Shown: positions 11,985-26,317 of the stretch, piece after piece
How the letters are laid out: every line of letters starts with the position of its first letter
How positions within the stretch are numbered: position 1 is the stretch's first letter
From: Ignavibacteriae bacterium HGW-Ignavibacteriae-4
Lineage (GTDB): Bacteria > Bacteroidota > Ignavibacteria > Kapaibacteriales > UBA2268
DNA length: 41,858 nucleotides
Assembly: GCA_002839765.1 (NCBI GenBank)
Contig: PGYR01000033.1
Span: forward strand, 1-41,858
Direction of reading: 5' to 3'
The notes under the pieces: generated by a model
Database searches by the model: none
The model's input: the letters and a program-made list of their open reading frames with translations, nothing else
What the model was told of the DNA's origin: nothing
Translations under genes and position numbers: made by a program

Positions 11985-12001
11985 TTGGCACTTTCTTTGC
12001 A
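11985..12001 (+). promoter_or_regulatory. Sigma-54 (RpoN) promoter of the flagellar operon
   Basis: TTGGCACTTTCTTTGCA matches the -24/-12 consensus (TTGGCACG-N4-TTGCA). Its GG (11987-11988) and GC (11999-12000) are exactly 12 bp apart, as sigma-54 requires. Transcription would start near 12012, giving flgB a leader of about 28 nt. Sigma-54 control of hook-basal-body genes is common; the enhancer-binding activator would be encoded elsewhere. Confidence 0.85.
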
Positions 12002-12024
12002 GAACTTTCTTTAGAAAAGTAAAA

Positions 12025-12037
12025 TATCAGGATGATA
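12025..12037 (+). promoter_or_regulatory. GGA-loop hairpin over the flgB ribosome-binding site
   Basis: TATCA-GGA-TGATA is a perfect 5-bp stem with a GGA loop. That GGA is the only Shine-Dalgarno-like sequence, 7 nt before the flgB ATG. This arrangement suits a CsrA/RsmA-type binding site or SD sequestration. Confidence 0.55.
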
Positions 12038-12039
12038 CG

Positions 12040-12462
12040 ATGCTCGTAAAGGATTTTCTATTTAATAAGAAGCTCCCATTGATGACCAAAGCGTTGGATT
12101 CTTATGCTCTTAGGCAACAAACGACAGCCAAGAACATAGCTAACGCTGACACTCCGAACTATAGACCCGAGAGGGTTCGGTTCGAAGAGCTGTTCCACAA
12201 TGAGGAAGTAGTGCTCAAAGGAGTAGAGACCAAATCAGGTCATATACCATTGGGTAAGGTTAATTCTGGTGTGCCAGTGGGGGAAAAGGAATACCGAGAT
12301 ATTCCTGAAGCTGAAGTTTTCTTCAGTGGAGAGAACCATGTCAATTTGGACAAGGAAATGGCGGAATCTGCGGAGAATCAAATAAGATTTAGATTAGTAT
12401 CCAAGATGGTTAGCAAATACTTCAACGGTATTTCTAATTCGATTAAAGGAACAAATTCATAG
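12040..12462 (+). CDS. flgB: Flagellar basal-body rod protein FlgB
   Basis: FlgB forms the proximal rod of the flagellum, next to FliE and the MS ring. The 140 residues have the typical length and the rod-family N-terminal motif (SYALRQQTTAKNIANADTPNYRPERVRFEE) with the conserved NIANADTPNY core. The helical C-terminus (AENQIRFRLVSKMVSKYFNGISNSI) is also characteristic. It is the first gene of the operon, about 39 bp after a sigma-54 promoter, and flgC follows after 8 bp. Confidence 0.97.
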   Translation: MLVKDFLFNKKLPLMTKALDSYALRQQTTAKNIANADTPNYRPERVRFEELFHNEEVVLKGVETKSGHIPLGKVNSGVPVGEKEYRDIPEAEVFFSGENHVNLDKEMAESAENQIRFRLVSKMVSKYFNGISNSIKGTNS

Positions 12463-12470
12463 AATAGATT

Positions 12471-12956
12471 ATGGCTGAGAACATATTTTCAAGTTTTAAT
12501 ATAAGTGGACAAGGCATGAGCGTACAGCGATTGCGTCTGTCTGCTGTGGCTAGAAACATAGCTAATGCTAATACTACCAAAGCTGACGACGGTATGCCGT
12601 ACAAGCGTGAAGTAGTAGTGGTACGTGATATTAAAGATAGTCCATTCGAAAAGAGCATGAACGCTACTTTGCAATTGGACAAAACTAATGCTGGCCATTC
12701 GGGATCGGCTATGAATAATGGTATGGAAGGTGACGACGATGTGCTAAGAGCTAGAACTGTGAAAGACAATTCGGCACCACGTATGGTGTTTGACCCTAAT
12801 CATCCCGATGCAAATCCTGATGGTTACGTTCAGATGCCCGATATAAATATAGTTACTGAAATGGTAGAGATGATTTCTGCGCAGCGTGCTTTCCAAGCGA
12901 ACGCACAAGTGGTAGATGCAGCTAAGAATCTCGCACGTTATTCTCTGGAAATATAA
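12471..12956 (+). CDS. flgC: Flagellar basal-body rod protein FlgC
   Basis: A proximal rod subunit of 161 residues. The N-terminus carries the rod-family helix (GMSVQRLRLSAVARNIANANTTK). The C-terminus carries the Flg_bbr_C motif (NIVTEMVEMISAQRAFQANAQVVDAAKNLARYSLEI), both normal for FlgC. It is directly downstream of flgB and upstream of a small unassigned gene. Confidence 0.97.
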   Translation: MAENIFSSFNISGQGMSVQRLRLSAVARNIANANTTKADDGMPYKREVVVVRDIKDSPFEKSMNATLQLDKTNAGHSGSAMNNGMEGDDDVLRARTVKDNSAPRMVFDPNHPDANPDGYVQMPDINIVTEMVEMISAQRAFQANAQVVDAAKNLARYSLEI

Positions 12957-12967
12957 TACGGTAGTAT

Positions 12968-13264
12968 ATGAGACTAAACGCCACAGATAGCCAAATAACA
13001 AGAATATATAATAACGACTCGGAAGGTATAGCCTCAAAGAGTAGGGTTAACCAGACCCAATCTCCGCAAAAGCAAAAGCTAGCTGAGTTCAACGACAAGG
13101 TAAGTCAACCCGATACTATACTTTCGGATAATGAGAAGAATTTCTTCAAGAAAATGTTCCCAGAAAGTTCGGCATCGCTTGATAGACACGTAGTCTTCAA
13201 CAGAAACGGAAGAGTACAGAGCAAGGTATTTGCCCTTGGTACTATGTTAGACGCAAAAGTTTAG
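12968..13264 (+). CDS. Small hypothetical protein inside the flagellar operon
   Basis: I do not recognise a family. The 98-residue protein has a polar, probably disordered N-terminal half (residues 1-45, rich in S, N, Q and K). A conserved-looking second half follows, around LSDNEKNFFKKMFPESSASLD and RNGRVQSKVFALGTMLDAKV. It has no signal peptide, membrane segment or cysteine. It starts 11 bp after flgC and ends 61 bp before fliE, on the same strand, so it is part of the operon. Its position among rod genes suggests an export-substrate, chaperone or assembly role, but that is inference only. Confidence 0.75.
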   Translation: MRLNATDSQITRIYNNDSEGIASKSRVNQTQSPQKQKLAEFNDKVSQPDTILSDNEKNFFKKMFPESSASLDRHVVFNRNGRVQSKVFALGTMLDAKV

Positions 13265-13283
13265 AATTAGAAAAAAGTATATA

Positions 13284-13302
13284 AATAGTCAGGATGACTA
13301 TT
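13284..13302 (+). promoter_or_regulatory. GGA-loop hairpin upstream of fliE (distal)
   Basis: AATAGTCA-GGA-TGACTATT is a perfect 8-bp stem with a GGA triloop, 24-42 nt before fliE. It shares TCAGGATGA with the flgB hairpin, but its outer stem bases differ and still pair. Confidence 0.6.
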
Positions 13303-13309
13303 CATAAAT

Positions 13310-13321
13310 TACACGGAAGTA
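13310..13321 (+). promoter_or_regulatory. ACGGA hexaloop over the fliE ribosome-binding site (proximal)
   Basis: TAC-ACGGAA-GTA places an ANGGA motif (the CsrA core) in a hexaloop. The GGA (13315-13317) is also the likely Shine-Dalgarno, 8 nt before the ATG. It lies 23 nt after the distal GGA. Confidence 0.45.
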
Positions 13322-13325
13322 CATT

Positions 13326-13637
13326 ATGATTCCTATAGAACCGGCAGCGGGGCGGATTTCTGCCTTAGTTAATCCGCAAAATCAATCCAATACTATCAAA
13401 GCTGGTAGTAAAAGCGACGTAAAATTTGCTGACACTCTTAGTGAGTTCGTTAGCGATGTCAATTCACTTCAAATAGAATCAAAAGAAAAATCAACTGCAT
13501 TTATCAAGGGGGAACCCGTTGATATACACGATGTTATGATTAGTGCTGAAAAAGCAAAAACTAGCTTCGAGCTTCTTATGGAACTACGAAACAAGGCAAT
13601 CGAGCTTTACAAAGAAGTAAACAGAATGCAGGTTTAA
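13326..13637 (+). CDS. fliE: Flagellar hook-basal body complex protein FliE
   Basis: FliE is the small junction protein that joins the MS ring (FliF) to the FlgB rod and is one of the first exported subunits. The 103 residues have the usual length. The conserved C-terminal part contains DVHDVMISAEKAKTSFELLMELRNKAIELYKEVNRMQV-like elements: the D(I)HDVMI...A..A...F.L..E.RNK..E.Y.E..RM pattern. The ATG at 13326 follows a GGA-containing leader. It is immediately upstream of fliF. Confidence 0.96.
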   Translation: MIPIEPAAGRISALVNPQNQSNTIKAGSKSDVKFADTLSEFVSDVNSLQIESKEKSTAFIKGEPVDIHDVMISAEKAKTSFELLMELRNKAIELYKEVNRMQV

Positions 13638-19088: not shown

Positions 19089-19776
19089 ATACCAGGTAAT
19101 AATAACATTTGTAGTTTCTATGTTGCTAACAGTAGCGATGATAGGGGGTGTCTGGTGGTATTATCAATATGATAATTCATTCTTTGGGCTAATAGATATG
19201 GAGAAAACTAAAGCCCATTACTATGATGTAGATCCAACTAAGAGCTTCGTTATTTCAGGTAATGAGCTAATAGAGCTAAAGGGTAATACTGATAGAATGT
19301 ACACTCTGGAAAAAAGTTACAACAGTCTAAAAACAAAATACAAAGCTGTGAAGGGCGAATACGACAAACTAATGAGCAAGACAGCAAATAGTGGTCAAAA
19401 AGTAGATTCAATAAGTTCACAATTAACCACACTGGCTAAAAAGGAACAAGTTCTAAAAGATTCATTAAGACTCTTAGATAATGAGATAAAATCGTTGAAA
19501 GAAAATTATGAGTTTGCAAAAACAAAACTCGTAGAAATGGATAATTTGGTGAATGGGAATTCTGATTCTCTTAACATGGAGAAATACAAGGAGTTTGCGA
19601 AGATATACAATAACTCCAAATCAGAAGAAGTAGCCCAAATACTAGAGAATATTGATGCAAGAAAATCGGCTTACATCTTAAAAATGATGTCTAAGAAAAA
19701 AGCTGGCAAGGTAATTGAAAGTTTAAATTCAGAATACGCCGCTAAAGTATTATTAGAAAGCGGCAAACTAAGATAA
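19081..19776 (+). CDS. MotE-like flagellar protein (MgtE-N-like C-terminus)
   Basis: A 231-residue protein with one N-terminal transmembrane helix (about 5-28, VIITFVVSMLLTVAMIGGVWWYY). A coiled coil follows (about 75-155). The C-terminal domain EEVAQILENIDARKSAYILKMMSKKKAGKVIESLNSEYAAKVL resembles the MgtE intracellular N domain found in MotE proteins. MotE proteins lie between fliJ and fliK in many flagellar operons and, in epsilonproteobacteria, act as chaperones for MotC/stator components. The order fliJ-this gene-fliK fits. The call is by domain architecture and position. Confidence 0.82.
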   Translation: MSKYQVIITFVVSMLLTVAMIGGVWWYYQYDNSFFGLIDMEKTKAHYYDVDPTKSFVISGNELIELKGNTDRMYTLEKSYNSLKTKYKAVKGEYDKLMSKTANSGQKVDSISSQLTTLAKKEQVLKDSLRLLDNEIKSLKENYEFAKTKLVEMDNLVNGNSDSLNMEKYKEFAKIYNNSKSEEVAQILENIDARKSAYILKMMSKKKAGKVIESLNSEYAAKVLLESGKLR

Positions 19777-19812
19777 CAGGATTGTTACACATTTAATAGT
19801 GCAAGGACGCAC
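19774..19812 (+). promoter_or_regulatory. Paired GGA-loop hairpins in the fliK leader
   Basis: TAACA-GGAT-TGTTA (19774-19787) and GTGC-AAGGAC-GCAC (19799-19812) each present GGA in the loop. The two GGAs are 26 nt apart, and the second lies 13 nt before the fliK ATG. The pair resembles a dual CsrA-binding leader. Confidence 0.5.
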
Positions 19813-19820
19813 CGAAACAA

Positions 19821-21467
19821 ATGGAAACAAATATAATGCTCCCATTCTCGAATGGGACTGACACTATAATGCCTTCCAAAAAGGCAAATAAGTTAACCGA
19901 AGAGGCGACAGAGTTCGGCTTTCTGGATAACTTCCTCAACGTGCTAATCACGAATATGAACCCAGGTGATTTGAGCTTGGATTCGCAAACGAGTGATAAG
20001 CTCTCCAAATTAGTTAATAGTGAAGTAGAGTCTAATGATGATCTAAGTGGTATTGATTTGAAGCAATTTATTAATAGCTTGAAATCAGAACTAGCTAATG
20101 AAAAACCTCATAAACTTACATTGGACAGTATCAAAGCTACTATTACTCGATTAATCTCAAAATTTACAAGTCTGAAATCTTCTCCAATCGTAAGTGATAA
20201 TGGATTATCTAGTTTAGAAGATACTTTGGGAAATGAAAGTAACGATTTAGTTAAAACAGATACTATCAAGGAAGAGAGTAAAGATATTTCAACAATATCA
20301 TATAAAGTTTATCAGAATCAAGAGCAGGAATCAAGTCTTATCAATTCCGATTCTGAGAAATTACTTTTCAATCTCAGAAAATATCTGACAAAAGACGAAT
20401 ACAATATAATAAAGAAGAATATACAATCTGGGTCAAATAATCTAGAAAGTAAATTGACCCCTAAGGTAGAAGCTATTAGTAAATTTCTAACTGAAATGGC
20501 AGGCAAAGAGACCGATGCCAAAAGCAGAATAGTTACCAAAGCAAACGATATACTTTTGTCACATGAATTAGATAAAACGACTAACAATAGTCAAGCTAAT
20601 ACGCTTACAAAATCAGATATTTTAGTTTCTAAAATCAGCGAAGAACTTAATCCGAATTTATCAGAAAGCGAATCTAAAATTACGGATCAAAAATCTATTC
20701 TTAATTCATCTATAGACGGTAAAGTAGTAGAATCAGAAGTTAAAAACATAGTTGGTGTGGATGTAAAACAGAATGCTACTTCCACTAAAACAGTATCAGA
20801 TAATATATTTGCTAATGCTGAGAATCAAGTCAAAGCAGAGCAAAGTCTAAGTGATAATACTAAGAAAGATTCGGGTGAATTCAGCAAAGAATTTACAAGA
20901 GAGCAAGCTAAAGAGACTATAAAGCAAAGAATAGTAAAAAGCGATATTTCGGAATTGCTAACCAAAACTAATACAAAGAAAATAGAAACGACTAAATCTG
21001 AAACAGTTACGCGTTCTAATTTCGTAGAAAATGCAATTAAGACTATAAAAATGACCAAAAGCGGTGGCTCGAACGTAGCTAGAATTACGCTCAATCCTCG
21101 ATCATTAGGTGATTTGACTATGAGAATTTCTCTCATAGGTAACAATGTGAAACTCTATATAAAAGCAGATAAATCTGAAACTGCGGAACATATAGATAGA
21201 CAACTACCACTACTGAAAGAAAGATTAACAGAAAGTGGATTAAAAGTAGAGCAAGTGATAATAGAATCTTCGGAAACGGATCACTTAGCTAATAATAATG
21301 AAAATCAGAACAGAAATGAACAAGAAGAGCTACGTCGCCAATTCGTGAAATCATTCAAGAATATAGCAGCAAAAGAGGAATTTGATATTTCGATAGGTAA
21401 CGTAGTATATAATAATAGTAGTCCTTTAGTGGGCTACACACAGGCGGGGAGTACAATAAATGTTTGA
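19821..21467 (+). CDS. fliK: Flagellar hook-length control protein FliK
   Basis: FliK is the secreted ruler that sets hook length and switches export specificity. The 548 residues comprise a long, polar, low-complexity N-terminal ruler region (S/N/K/E-rich) and a compact C-terminal Flg_hook domain (about 395-480, ARITLNPRSLGDLTMRISL, KLYIKADKSETAEHIDRQL, LKERLTESGLKVEQVIIE). The domain order is typical and the N-terminus is not conserved, as expected. It overlaps flgD by 8 bp, the classical fliK-flgD arrangement. Confidence 0.94.
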   Translation: METNIMLPFSNGTDTIMPSKKANKLTEEATEFGFLDNFLNVLITNMNPGDLSLDSQTSDKLSKLVNSEVESNDDLSGIDLKQFINSLKSELANEKPHKLTLDSIKATITRLISKFTSLKSSPIVSDNGLSSLEDTLGNESNDLVKTDTIKEESKDISTISYKVYQNQEQESSLINSDSEKLLFNLRKYLTKDEYNIIKKNIQSGSNNLESKLTPKVEAISKFLTEMAGKETDAKSRIVTKANDILLSHELDKTTNNSQANTLTKSDILVSKISEELNPNLSESESKITDQKSILNSSIDGKVVESEVKNIVGVDVKQNATSTKTVSDNIFANAENQVKAEQSLSDNTKKDSGEFSKEFTREQAKETIKQRIVKSDISELLTKTNTKKIETTKSETVTRSNFVENAIKTIKMTKSGGSNVARITLNPRSLGDLTMRISLIGNNVKLYIKADKSETAEHIDRQLPLLKERLTESGLKVEQVIIESSETDHLANNNENQNRNEQEELRRQFVKSFKNIAAKEEFDISIGNVVYNNSSPLVGYTQAGSTINV

Positions 21468-22572: not shown

Positions 22573-22678
22573 AGGGTCGGACCCGATTAACTCGGGGAAC
22601 CCTCGCAAAGCTTGAATGAAAGATAGCTTTGCACATAATAAATAAGAAAGGATTTCTTATAACGTACCATGGAGGGTA
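22573..22678 (+). ncRNA. Structured leader of flgE: four successive stem-loops
   Basis: The 118-bp gap before flgE is nearly all stem-loops. First, AGGGT/ACCCT (22573-22577 with 22599-22603) encloses CCCGA-ttaac-TCGGG (22582-22596). Then come GCAAAGC/GCTTTGC (22605-22611 with 22626-22632), ATAAGAAA-GGA-TTTCTTAT (22642-22660, perfect 8 bp), and TACC-ATGGAG-GGTA (22665-22678), which contains the GGAGG Shine-Dalgarno of flgE. I cannot match the whole to a named riboswitch. The last two hairpins present GGA in the loop, 21 nt apart. Confidence 0.6.
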
Positions 22679-22684
22679 TTTTTT

Positions 22685-24007
22685 ATGGGTCTATCAAGAT
22701 CTCTTAGTACTGGAACGAGTTCGCTTAGGGCACATCAGAAAAAATTTGATGTCATAGCCAATAACTTAGCTAACGCAAGTACAGTAGGTTTCAAGGCAAA
22801 TAGAGTAACTTTTGCCGATCAATTCACACAGACTACATCACTAGGTCAAAAGCCAGATTCATCTGGAGCCACTACTGGTGGGCTTAACCCAGTACAATTT
22901 GGATTAGGTGTGAAAATCGGTGCTGTTCAAAGAAATATGGACCAAGGTCTAATAGAAGTAACTGGACGTGCATTAGATATGGCTATCAATGGTAATGGAT
23001 TTTTCATATACCAAGCTGATGGACAAACTAAGTATTCGAGAGCAGGCGCTGTCGTACGTGATAGTAATGGCTATCTAGTTGACGCTGGTTCGGGTTCTCA
23101 CTTACAAGGTTATAATCTAGTTTACGATAATACTGGTAAGCCAGTTAAAGATGGTGATGGAGCTAATATACTAGATAGATCACTATCTAATTTACGTATC
23201 CAACCGGGATTTCTATCAACTCCTAGACAGACAACAGAACTTTCGCTTAATGGTAACCTGAATGCACAAATGGATGTAGGAGAGACTCGTAATACATCTA
23301 TCAATATATTTGATAAAACTGGTGCACCTCGTGAAATGGCTTTAGTATTTGAGAAAACAGCAACACCTAATGAATATACTATTAGTGGTTCGATTGAAGG
23401 TAATGCTATTACTTTGAGTGATACGACAGTTACTTTCAACGAAGATGGTAGTATAAACACTCCGACTGAAATAACAGTAACTGCTGCCGATTTGAACTCA
23501 GTACTTGGTGGGAATTTGTTCGATGCTACAACACCTAAGGACATTAAAATCCTATTTGTTGATCCTGATGGAAACTCATTTGGTGGACTAACTCAATTCT
23601 CTTCTCCTAGCAATGCGACTATCCAATCTCAAAATGGATTCGAAGCTGGTGAGTTACTGAATATGCAAGTTAGCCCTAGAGGTGAGATTGTAGGTACATT
23701 CACTAATGGTCAATCAGAAGTTATAGGACAGGTTGCGATAGCCAAATTTACTAACCCTGAAGGTCTAATCACTTCTGGTGGTAACTTCTTCGAGGCATCT
23801 CCAAATGCGGGTACTCCCAATATTGGGACAGCAGGTGAAACATTCCCTTCATCGACAATCGCTGGTAGTGCATTGGAGCAATCAAATGTTGATTTGACGA
23901 TAGAGTTTACGGAGATGATTTCTACTCAGCGTGCCTTCGAGGCAGCAAGTAGAACAGTAACAGTAGGCGATCAGATGTTAGCAGAGATCAACCAACTGAA
24001 ACGATAA
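22685..24007 (+). CDS. flgE: Flagellar hook protein FlgE
   Basis: FlgE forms the universal joint of the flagellum. The 440 residues contain the N-terminal flagellar rod/hook motif (SLRAHQKKFDVIANNLANAS, then TVGFKANRVTFADQF), a variable exposed middle, and the C-terminal motif (NVDLTIEFTEMISTQRAFEA, then TVGDQMLAEINQLKR). Its size is in the normal hook-protein range. A strong GGAGGG ribosome-binding site lies inside a hairpin of its leader. A rho-independent terminator follows, so flgE closes this flagellar operon. Confidence 0.96.
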   Translation: MGLSRSLSTGTSSLRAHQKKFDVIANNLANASTVGFKANRVTFADQFTQTTSLGQKPDSSGATTGGLNPVQFGLGVKIGAVQRNMDQGLIEVTGRALDMAINGNGFFIYQADGQTKYSRAGAVVRDSNGYLVDAGSGSHLQGYNLVYDNTGKPVKDGDGANILDRSLSNLRIQPGFLSTPRQTTELSLNGNLNAQMDVGETRNTSINIFDKTGAPREMALVFEKTATPNEYTISGSIEGNAITLSDTTVTFNEDGSINTPTEITVTAADLNSVLGGNLFDATTPKDIKILFVDPDGNSFGGLTQFSSPSNATIQSQNGFEAGELLNMQVSPRGEIVGTFTNGQSEVIGQVAIAKFTNPEGLITSGGNFFEASPNAGTPNIGTAGETFPSSTIAGSALEQSNVDLTIEFTEMISTQRAFEAASRTVTVGDQMLAEINQLKR

Positions 24008-24151: not shown

Positions 24152-26317
24152 ATGAGAATAATTATTACTTTATTCTTTGTGATGAGTGTTTCTTTGTTTT
24201 CCCAAAGTAGATTAATATGGGAAAATCAAGGTGAACCAGTTTATAATAGTAATGCGATACTATCACCTAACGAAAAAGTGATGGCTGTTACCAATAGTAG
24301 CTCCAAACCTATGACTATATGGGATGTAAAAACAGGTGAATTGATTGACACCATAGGAGGCACAATTAGAATTAGCTACGATATAAGTCTGACAGGTGAG
24401 CATTTTGTCTATTTGGATAATGCCAATCTCCTACATTTTAGAAATATATATACTCATTCGGATGATAAGACCTTTAGCCTACCAGTTGATATTCAAATCA
24501 ACTCACTAAAGATACTTAATAATGGGCAAATCCCTGATATAGCATTATTAGTCTATAAAGAGGGTGATTTGAGTATAGAAATATTAGATTTAGAAGAGCA
24601 GAAAATAATACAGCAATATCCACTAGAAAAAGACATCTTCGAGAATTATAGTAATAGATTATTTGTGGATACTTTTGGAGACTATATTGCTTTCAGCTTC
24701 ACAAATTTTAGAATCCAAGAGGATGTGGACACAGTTAAAAACAGAATTCTATTATTAGATGTTAGAAATGAGAGGCTAGTTACTAAAACAGTAGCTGTAA
24801 ATGGAATAAATGAAATCAAATTATCTCCTGTAAAAGATAAGATTATAGTCGCAACAGGTAGCTGGAATAATGATTTCGAAAATGTTTTAGTACTAGATTT
24901 TGATTTAAACAAGTCAGCAGAATTCGAAGGTTCGAAAACTAATTTTTATAAAATTGATTTCGTAAATAATAATTCTGATGATTTTTATGCGATGTCCGAT
25001 GATTCTCTATTTATACTAAACTCCGAATTAAAGATTATAAAATCACAGCCATTTACTTCATATCAATCTCTAGAATTTCTAAGTGGAAATAGATTTCTTC
25101 AGATGCTTCAATACCAGGTTAGAATTAGAGATATAGACTCTAAAGAAATCAAAGGTGTGTTCGAACAATACCAAGGTAATATGCACAGAATGGAAGTAAC
25201 AGATATAGATGTAAGTAAAGATGACAAATATGTATTTAGTAGCTCTTTTGATGGGACTATAAAAAAATGGGATGCCATAAGTGGTGGTTTTATTGAGAAC
25301 TATATAGAAACTTATGATGCAGTCAGAAAGATTGAAATTTCAGATGATGGTAAGTTATTTGCTTATGCAGGGTACGATAATATAAACAACATAACTCTTC
25401 TAAATCTCGAAAGTAAAGAAGTAATTTCTAGGTTTGATATTCCTACTTCTATTACTGATTTTGATATTAGTAAAGATAGCAAATACCTAATCGCAGGTAC
25501 TTATGGGGGGAAGGTGTACATATATGATTTGGAACAAAAAAACTTATTGGATAGTTTGGATGGAGGTTATTGGGTGAATGCCGTTGGCATTTCATCTGAT
25601 AATAAATATATAGCAAGTGGTAATCAAGATGGTGTATTCAAACTTTGGGATTTAGAAAATATGCACATATTATTCTCTCAAGATATAACTGATAAAAATG
25701 GTTTATATTCTGTAGAATTTTCATCTGATAGTAAAGAAATACTAATATCAAGTGGTGATGGAACTTTGAAAATATTCAACTTGCACGACCTCATTGTTAA
25801 AAATCAATATTTTTACAAAGATAATAGCGGTAGTTGGTCTATTTTCTATGATGCCGTATATTCTAACGATGGAAAATCTATATATGGTGGAGCGCAGGCA
25901 GGTACTAAAGCTTTCAAAGTTGGTAATTTTGACGGAGAGCTATTATCACCTCCGAACACTAATTTTAATTCATTTTCTGTGAAGTGTCTAAAGTACCTCA
26001 ACAATGAATCAGCATTTGTGGCCGGAGATAGCAGAGGGAATATTTCAAAATGGGCGGGTGATGCATTCACTTCTGTAGAAACAAAGATAACACGCGATAA
26101 TTTGGTTTATCCTAATCCAGTAATCAATACATTACATCTTAATCTGCCGGAAAATTTATTAATAAATAGATTTGAAATAACAAATATACTCGGTAAAGTT
26201 GTAAAAGAAGGACAATCAGACACTCGAGTAAATGTATCAGATTTGAGTACTGGTACCTACATAATTACACTATATAGCAATAGTGGATTAATAAGAAATA
26301 AGTTCGTTAAGCAATAA
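24152..26317 (+). CDS. Secreted WD40-like beta-propeller protein with T9SS sorting domain
   Basis: A 721-residue exported protein with a signal peptide (about 1-19, ending SLFSQ). Many WD40-type blades follow (for example TIWDVKTGELIDTI, GTIKKWDAISGGF, KVYIYDLEQKNLLDSLDG, GVFKLWDLENMHILFSQ, GTLKIFNLHD). The C-terminus (about 650-721) is a sorting domain: NLVYPNPVINTLHLNLP, ILGKVVKEG, LSTGTYIITLYSNSGLIRNKFVKQ. It probably forms a surface propeller for protein or polymer binding; no catalytic site is evident. It sits alone between two nearly identical terminators and is related in design to the frameshifted gene at 10213-11497. Confidence 0.9.
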   Translation: MRIIITLFFVMSVSLFSQSRLIWENQGEPVYNSNAILSPNEKVMAVTNSSSKPMTIWDVKTGELIDTIGGTIRISYDISLTGEHFVYLDNANLLHFRNIYTHSDDKTFSLPVDIQINSLKILNNGQIPDIALLVYKEGDLSIEILDLEEQKIIQQYPLEKDIFENYSNRLFVDTFGDYIAFSFTNFRIQEDVDTVKNRILLLDVRNERLVTKTVAVNGINEIKLSPVKDKIIVATGSWNNDFENVLVLDFDLNKSAEFEGSKTNFYKIDFVNNNSDDFYAMSDDSLFILNSELKIIKSQPFTSYQSLEFLSGNRFLQMLQYQVRIRDIDSKEIKGVFEQYQGNMHRMEVTDIDVSKDDKYVFSSSFDGTIKKWDAISGGFIENYIETYDAVRKIEISDDGKLFAYAGYDNINNITLLNLESKEVISRFDIPTSITDFDISKDSKYLIAGTYGGKVYIYDLEQKNLLDSLDGGYWVNAVGISSDNKYIASGNQDGVFKLWDLENMHILFSQDITDKNGLYSVEFSSDSKEILISSGDGTLKIFNLHDLIVKNQYFYKDNSGSWSIFYDAVYSNDGKSIYGGAQAGTKAFKVGNFDGELLSPPNTNFNSFSVKCLKYLNNESAFVAGDSRGNISKWAGDAFTSVETKITRDNLVYPNPVINTLHLNLPENLLINRFEITNILGKVVKEGQSDTRVNVSDLSTGTYIITLYSNSGLIRNKFVKQ

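Follow-up and report, generated by a model that had tools for sequence, protein, structure and literature searches.

The flagellar operon and its GGA-loop hairpins

The window, by which we mean the whole 41,858-nt stretch of DNA analysed, belongs to a Ca. Kapabacteria-type draft genome of an uncultured relative of the Bacteroidota and contains the gene run flgB-flgC-orf98-fliE-fliF-fliG-fliH-fliI-fliJ-x231-fliK-flgD-x129-flgE. FlgB, FlgC, FlgD and FlgE were identified by NCBIfam models, as was x129, a TIGR02530 protein; FliE and FliF were named via Pfam and FliK via PF02120, the FliJ match lies below the model cut-off, and FliG, FliH and FliI are presumed from gene position. Four of these genes, all on the forward (+) strand, are central to what follows: flgB (12040-12462; TIGR01396, 80.8 bits), fliE (13326-13637; PF02049, 90.3 bits), fliK, for hook-length control (19821-21467; PF02120, 57.6 bits), and flgE, for the hook protein (22685-24007; best of the FlgE models, 292 bits). 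Between flgC and fliE lies a gene of 98 aa (12968-13264) that is left unassigned to a family by both Pfam and NCBIfam, and tblastn places related genes at this position in most operons of the family. TIGR04183, a type IX secretion sorting domain, is found in the product of the gene after flgE (24152-26317). A search of the entire window against Rfam gave no match.

A preliminary description of this DNA had drawn attention to GGA-bearing palindromes before flgB and fliE, and each of these is indeed found once, and once only, in the window, on the + strand. The flgB hairpin, TATCA-GGA-TGATA (TATCAGGATGATA; 12025-12037), lies over the sole Shine-Dalgarno (SD)-like sequence of that gene. The fliE leader contains a distal hairpin, AATAGTC-AGGAT-GACTATT (AATAGTCAGGATGACTATT; 13284-13302), and a hairpin at the SD, TAC-ACGGAA-GTA (TACACGGAAGTA; 13310-13321), the latter with an ANGGA loop of six; the two GGAs start at 13292 and 13315, and are thus 23 nt apart, as had been reported. 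With 8 bp and a score of 8.6 the distal fliE hairpin stands out, and the SD hairpin of the window genus has a 3-bp stem and a score just below 3.3, for which reason fliE itself fails the paired-site rules applied below (score of at least 4, or 3.3). Both fliE hairpins are present in the minimum-energy fold: a 55-nt fold of the leader contains the two of them (z=-3.16, 2/200 shuffles as good), although folding 84 nt of this leader gives nothing out of the ordinary (z=-0.88). The flgB hairpin is missing from the minimum-energy fold of 12012-12060.

All three hairpins are kept in three genomes of the same genus, so that the outcome named beforehand as counting against them, loss of both the GGA and the pairing in close relatives, did not occur. 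In one of these, G002, the base after the distal fliE GGA has changed, giving ATAGTC-AGGAA-GACTAT, and the innermost A-T pair is lost; this pair is therefore dispensable, and a five-base AGGAN describes the distal loop better. With respect to the ANGGA rule, the fliE SD loop contains ACGGA, and the distal fliE loop, like that of flgB, reads CAGGA and hence has C in place of the A that the rule sets two bases ahead of GGA, a caveat already raised in the preliminary description.

Upstream of the flgB hairpin is a sigma-54-type promoter, TTGGCAC-N5-TTGCA (11985-12001, + strand), containing the motif TGGCAY-N5-TTG, which is shared by 56 of 64 flgB leaders across the order, compared with 4 of 549 leaders belonging to the other genes of those pieces. 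As rpoN was also found in the genome, the flgB leader is probably only ~28 nt long, with a predicted transcript start at ~12012 placed by the usual spacing rule for sigma-54 promoters. An identical 23-base stretch immediately precedes flgB in 4/4 genomes of the genus, and the sequence between it and the promoter varies. One relative has two tandem flgB matches (L011, G019:C87:4476-5358).

Conservation and covariation across the family

The comparison across relatives drew on 74 operon pieces from 73 fliE-bearing genomes; the named relatives found with FliE are draft assemblies under labels such as Ca. Kapabacteria, Ca. Kapaibacterium, Ignavibacteria/Ignavibacteriae and Bacteroidetes. Leaders were read by script, and those of the family were counted where at least 40 bases upstream lay within the fetched piece; start codons were set by a script favouring SD-like sequences, in flagellar and control genes alike, and some doubtful fliE starts (e.g., G021, G026, G035) were counted as misses.

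GGA-loop hairpins in the fliE leaders of the family sit ~10 nt (SD) and ~30 nt (distal) before the start codon. At a score of at least 4, the SD hairpin is present in 24/46 family genomes and 17/24 genera, the window genus being excluded from this count by its 3-bp stem, and the distal hairpin in 17/46 genomes and 12/24 genera; both are present at a score of 3.2 in 19/46 genomes (12/24 genera), and neither at 3.3 in 15/46. Examples of the SD hairpin include GTGAA-AGGA-TTCAC, CTGA-AGGAG-TCAG, CCGA-AGGAG-TCGG, TGGAAA-GGA-TTTCCA and TTCGA-AGGAA-TCGAA, and of the distal hairpin GTTCA-AGGA-TGAAC, CTTCA-AGGA-TGAAG, GCTTC-ATGGAC-GAAGC and CTCA-AGGAA-TGAG. In 13 genomes the two fliE GGAs are spaced 15-28 nt apart. 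Within the same operons, the fliF, fliG, fliH, fliI, fliJ and x231 leaders have SD hairpins scoring at least 4 in 0-1 genera and distal ones in 0-2. Other families of the order, many of which have csrA, are mostly without the fliE hairpins (SD in 2/26 genomes, distal in 3/26); one genus of another family (g42) carries the distal hairpin GGACA-AGGA-TGTCC. In loops closed by a good stem, GGA is the top triplet of all 64 at the distal fliE position (9/19 genera, followed by GAT in 8 and AGG in 7, both of which overlap GGA) as well as at the SD position (16/23 genera); AT-rich triplets lead in the loops of distal fliF and fliG leaders. Of 45 family fliE hairpins at a score of 3.3, 36 have A as the first of the two bases preceding GGA (AA 27, AG 5, AT 3, AC 1) and 6 have CA there.

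The covariation first claimed for this locus was drawn from a comparison of flgB with fliE within a single genome, a usage at odds with the ordinary meaning of the term; for fliE, the present comparison does find covariation between genomes. It was assessed by an arm-swap, in which 3' arms are exchanged between genera with loop length chosen identically for true and exchanged partners, using one genome per genus (the first met), the GGA closest to a fixed position, and 25 tests in the operon set. Exchange lowered pairing from 4.28 to 3.15 at the fliE SD site (23 genera, p=0.0001) and from 3.89 to 2.89 at the distal site (19 genera, p=0.0017). Low p values were likewise obtained for flgE (SD p=0.007, 11 genera; distal p=0.016, 5 genera), flgD (SD p=0.003, 12 genera; distal p=0.025, 5 genera) and flagellin (SD p=0.0039, 17 genera; distal p=0.013, 13 genera; figures from 26 of 30 loci), and the flgB SD site gave p=0.044 (10 genera). 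Outside fliE, flgE, flgD and flgB a single operon test fell below 0.05, that of the distal flgC site (p=0.033, 6 genera); the remaining operon genes gave p>0.1, and fliE and flgB of other families p>0.15.

An alignment of leaders across relatives, the check originally proposed, did not by itself recover this pairing. When 30 fliE leaders were aligned by MAFFT without regard to structure, RNAalifold returned 0 consensus pairs; pair counts on this alignment were marginal (62.9% paired versus 58.9% in shuffled alignments, 26/500 shuffles as high), and the covariation score was as high in 68/500 shuffles. We attribute this failure to loops and spacers of varying length and therefore lean on the arm-swap, a weighing that is open to readers. 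The arm-swap in this respect offers a simple route to the detection of candidate CsrA sites in leaders whose variable loops and spacing are beyond ordinary alignment. By this measure the stems of the fliE hairpins, which differ between genera and yet pair, covary, and the comparative evidence across the family is strong. For flgB, whose hairpin reaches a score of at least 4 in 5/21 family genera and 8/40 genomes, the comparative evidence outside the genus is weak.

Candidate sites before other flagellar genes

Paired sites that the preliminary description had missed precede two further genes of the window, all on the + strand. Before fliK lie a distal hairpin, TAACA-GGAT-TGTTA (19774-19787), which is also found in G002 and is not in the minimum-energy fold, and an SD hairpin within that fold, GTGC-AAGGAC-GCAC (19799-19812). 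Before flgE, the distal hairpin ATAAGAAA-GGA-TTTCTTAT (22642-22660), again shared with G002, and the SD hairpin TACC-ATGGAG-GGTA (22665-22678) are both in the minimum-energy fold, and the latter attains a score of at least 4 in 7/11 family genera. Elsewhere in the genome flgF, flgG and fliW, also missed at first, have one hairpin each over the SD, and of the three flagellin leaders one has both sites, one has a distal GGCA-GGA-TGCC and one has neither. Sites scoring at least 4 are absent from the flgA, flgH, flgI, flgJ, flgK, flgN, fliD, fliS, flaG and csrA leaders of this genome, and its fliF to fliJ leaders are without sites. The earlier attribution of such sites to early flagellar genes needs redrawing: in this genome they precede fliW and genes whose exported products build the rod, hook and filament, and are not seen before fliF to fliJ. 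Across the family, many flagellin leaders contain a GGC-AGGAN-GCC hairpin ~40 nt before the start, the last loop base being T, C, G or A (e.g., L248:4162 (-), L203, L213, L263, L264).

How often such sites arise by chance was gauged from 221 predicted genes on 20 other contigs of this genome. At a score of at least 4, any site was found in 9/30 flagellar leaders and 22/221 controls, SD sites in 7/30 and 13/221 (p=0.0044, a modest enrichment), and both sites together in 3/30 and 0/221 (p=0.0016), with 1/221 controls having both at 3.3. Single GGA hairpins over the SD are therefore not rare among control genes, and the flgB hairpin alone is not striking. These single control hairpins are also what lends some plausibility to the notion that the palindromes are chance products around SDs in AT-rich leaders, kept within a genus by close descent, and flgB, with its leader invariant in the genus, is a possible case. 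For fliE, the Z scores by genus after shuffling of the flanks (5.3 at the SD site, 4.0 at the distal site) speak against chance, as do the arm-swap p values and the lack of any paired control site at a score of at least 4; judged on these comparisons, a chance origin of the fliE hairpins is largely disfavoured, and we consider chance a very improbable explanation overall.

Sites precede 8/13 genes for exported proteins and 1/17 others (p=0.0016), in a post hoc comparison devised after seeing the data and with exported status assigned as is usual for flagellar proteins. Within one long operon, exported rod, hook and hook-length cistrons have hairpins of their own, and export-machine and ring cistrons are without them. 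This distribution tentatively raises the possibility, to which we give somewhat less than even weight, that FliW-CsrA acts as a checkpoint on the substrates of flagellar type III export as a class. Were this true, a backlog of flagellin would stop the building of the basal body and hook as well as that of the filament.

FliW and CsrA as candidate regulators

A search of the genome, prompted by the suggestion that csrA and fliW be looked for and that absence of the former would tell against CsrA, located csrA (80.9 bits) directly downstream of fliW (90.2 bits) on contig C33. The predicted CsrA is 96 aa long, exceeding the 53-position domain, and has matches among CsrA-type proteins of known structure, with nine different sequences hit (best 1t3o, E 1.2e-13). 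Matches to csrA were obtained in 74/119 relatives and in 68/73 genomes with fliE, the five without a match being G013, G040, G060, G065 and G093. Of these, G040 (a 20-contig draft) and G065 have no GGA hairpin before fliE, and G093 has a weak one; G013 and G060 have clear fliE hairpins and are drafts of 650 and 400 contigs, fragmented enough that a csrA gene may have been missed, and G022, of the same genus as G060, has csrA.

A known kind of CsrA site is AnGGA within a hairpin close to where the ribosome binds (PMC6692469), and the fliE leaders place GGA in a hairpin loop by both sequence and fold; the flgB hairpin is present and lies outside the minimum-energy fold. The hag leader of Bacillus subtilis has two CsrA sites, one of them over the SD (PMC7652899), and the fliE SD and distal hairpins are similarly disposed, one over or near the ribosome-binding site and the second upstream. 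As for the partner switch, in which FliW binds flagellin and an extended C-terminus of CsrA, fliW and csrA are both present, and candidate CsrA-type sites occur in 2/3 flagellin leaders, the classical targets of CsrA. We thus think it likely that the hairpins are CsrA-type sites in mRNA leaders, and that translational control by FliW-CsrA reaches beyond flagellin to rod and hook proteins. What is observed is the hairpins, the pairing kept despite changes of letter, loops that contain GGA, and a genome with both csrA and fliW; from these we infer CsrA binding, repression rather than activation, and a FliW switch. The CsrA control first proposed for both leaders holds up for fliE, as judged by family counts, arm-swap and the rank of GGA in the loop, and is less well supported for flgB (5/21 genera, p=0.044, no hairpin in the fold), which may carry a lineage-specific CsrA site.

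Under such control, a CsrA dimer would bind the loop GGA over the SD, bridging to the distal loop where two sites lie ~20 nt apart, such that the ribosome could not load and the cistron would go untranslated. The block would be lifted by FliW, whose gene immediately precedes csrA, and a backlog of flagellin would hold FliW, thereby freeing CsrA and holding back fliE, fliK, flgE and flagellin.

Two readings without CsrA must be weighed. In the first, the hairpins work free of protein, covering the SD and tuning translation or the coupling of cistrons, and the loop GGA is merely the SD. Many hairpins do lie over the SD, and G013 and G060 have hairpins with no csrA match; the distal hairpins, however, ~20 nt upstream and off the SD, also hold GGA, the first of 64 triplets in 9/19 genera, and a structure that hides the SD would be expected to place GGA in the stem rather than the loop. 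We regard this reading as unlikely. Still less probable, and very much so, is that the palindromes, which as inverted repeats have the form of DNA operators, are operators, or sites for another protein that binds GGA loops. Their places are fixed relative to start codons, in mid-operon as well (fliE, fliK, flgE), their stem letters vary around a constant loop GGA, and csrA accompanies fliE in nearly all genomes, as counted above; CsrA binding is itself deduced from sequence.

The proposed FliW-CsrA control shares with the Hag-FliW-CsrA system of B. subtilis the adjacency of fliW and csrA, two leader sites with one over the SD, and flagellin leaders with sites, and differs in that candidate sites are also found in the fliE, fliK and flgE leaders and, in some lineages, those of flgB and flgD. 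The two genes are reported to be adjacent in B. subtilis, and in Campylobacter jejuni fliW does not neighbour csrA (PMC4894983). In C. jejuni, CsrA recognizes GGA in hairpin loops (AAGGA motif) and binds many flagellar mRNAs, with 68-fold enrichment of flgE and hardly any of fliE (2.4-fold) or flgB (1.6-fold) (PMC4894983). The loop GGA and a set of several flagellar targets, flgE among them and candidates in the present genome, are common to both; strong C. jejuni targets such as flgI and flgH (PMC4894983), in contrast, have no site in the Kapabacterial genome. The Escherichia coli SELEX consensus, RUACARGGAUGU (cited in PMC6692469), agrees with the fliE SD site (UUACACGGAAGU) at 9/12 positions by our own count, and the CAGGA loops of flgB and distal fliE depart from it. 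In Vibrio cholerae, fliE is listed in the legend of a figure on flagellar genes whose regulation was followed in a csrA mutant, and direct CsrA binding is demonstrated for regulators such as flrC (PMC7858070).

Among the papers listed for CsrA with fliE, flgB, FliW, flgE, hook and the like, no account of such a regulon was seen, and a search for CsrA with Kapabacteria listed no paper. The present data would place a probable FliW-CsrA regulon in a candidate group related to the Bacteroidota and, if the reading is true, extend the checkpoint known for flagellin so that it also covers proteins of the rod, the hook and hook-length control, selected cistron by cistron within an operon; the precise leaders given here are available for testing. 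The fliW leader itself (locus of the fliW-csrA pair: L249:7408 (+), L249:7847 (+)) has the hairpin CAAAA-AGGA-TTTTG over the SD, found also in at least two other genomes, G002 and G003, which suggests that the fliW-csrA pair may control its own translation.
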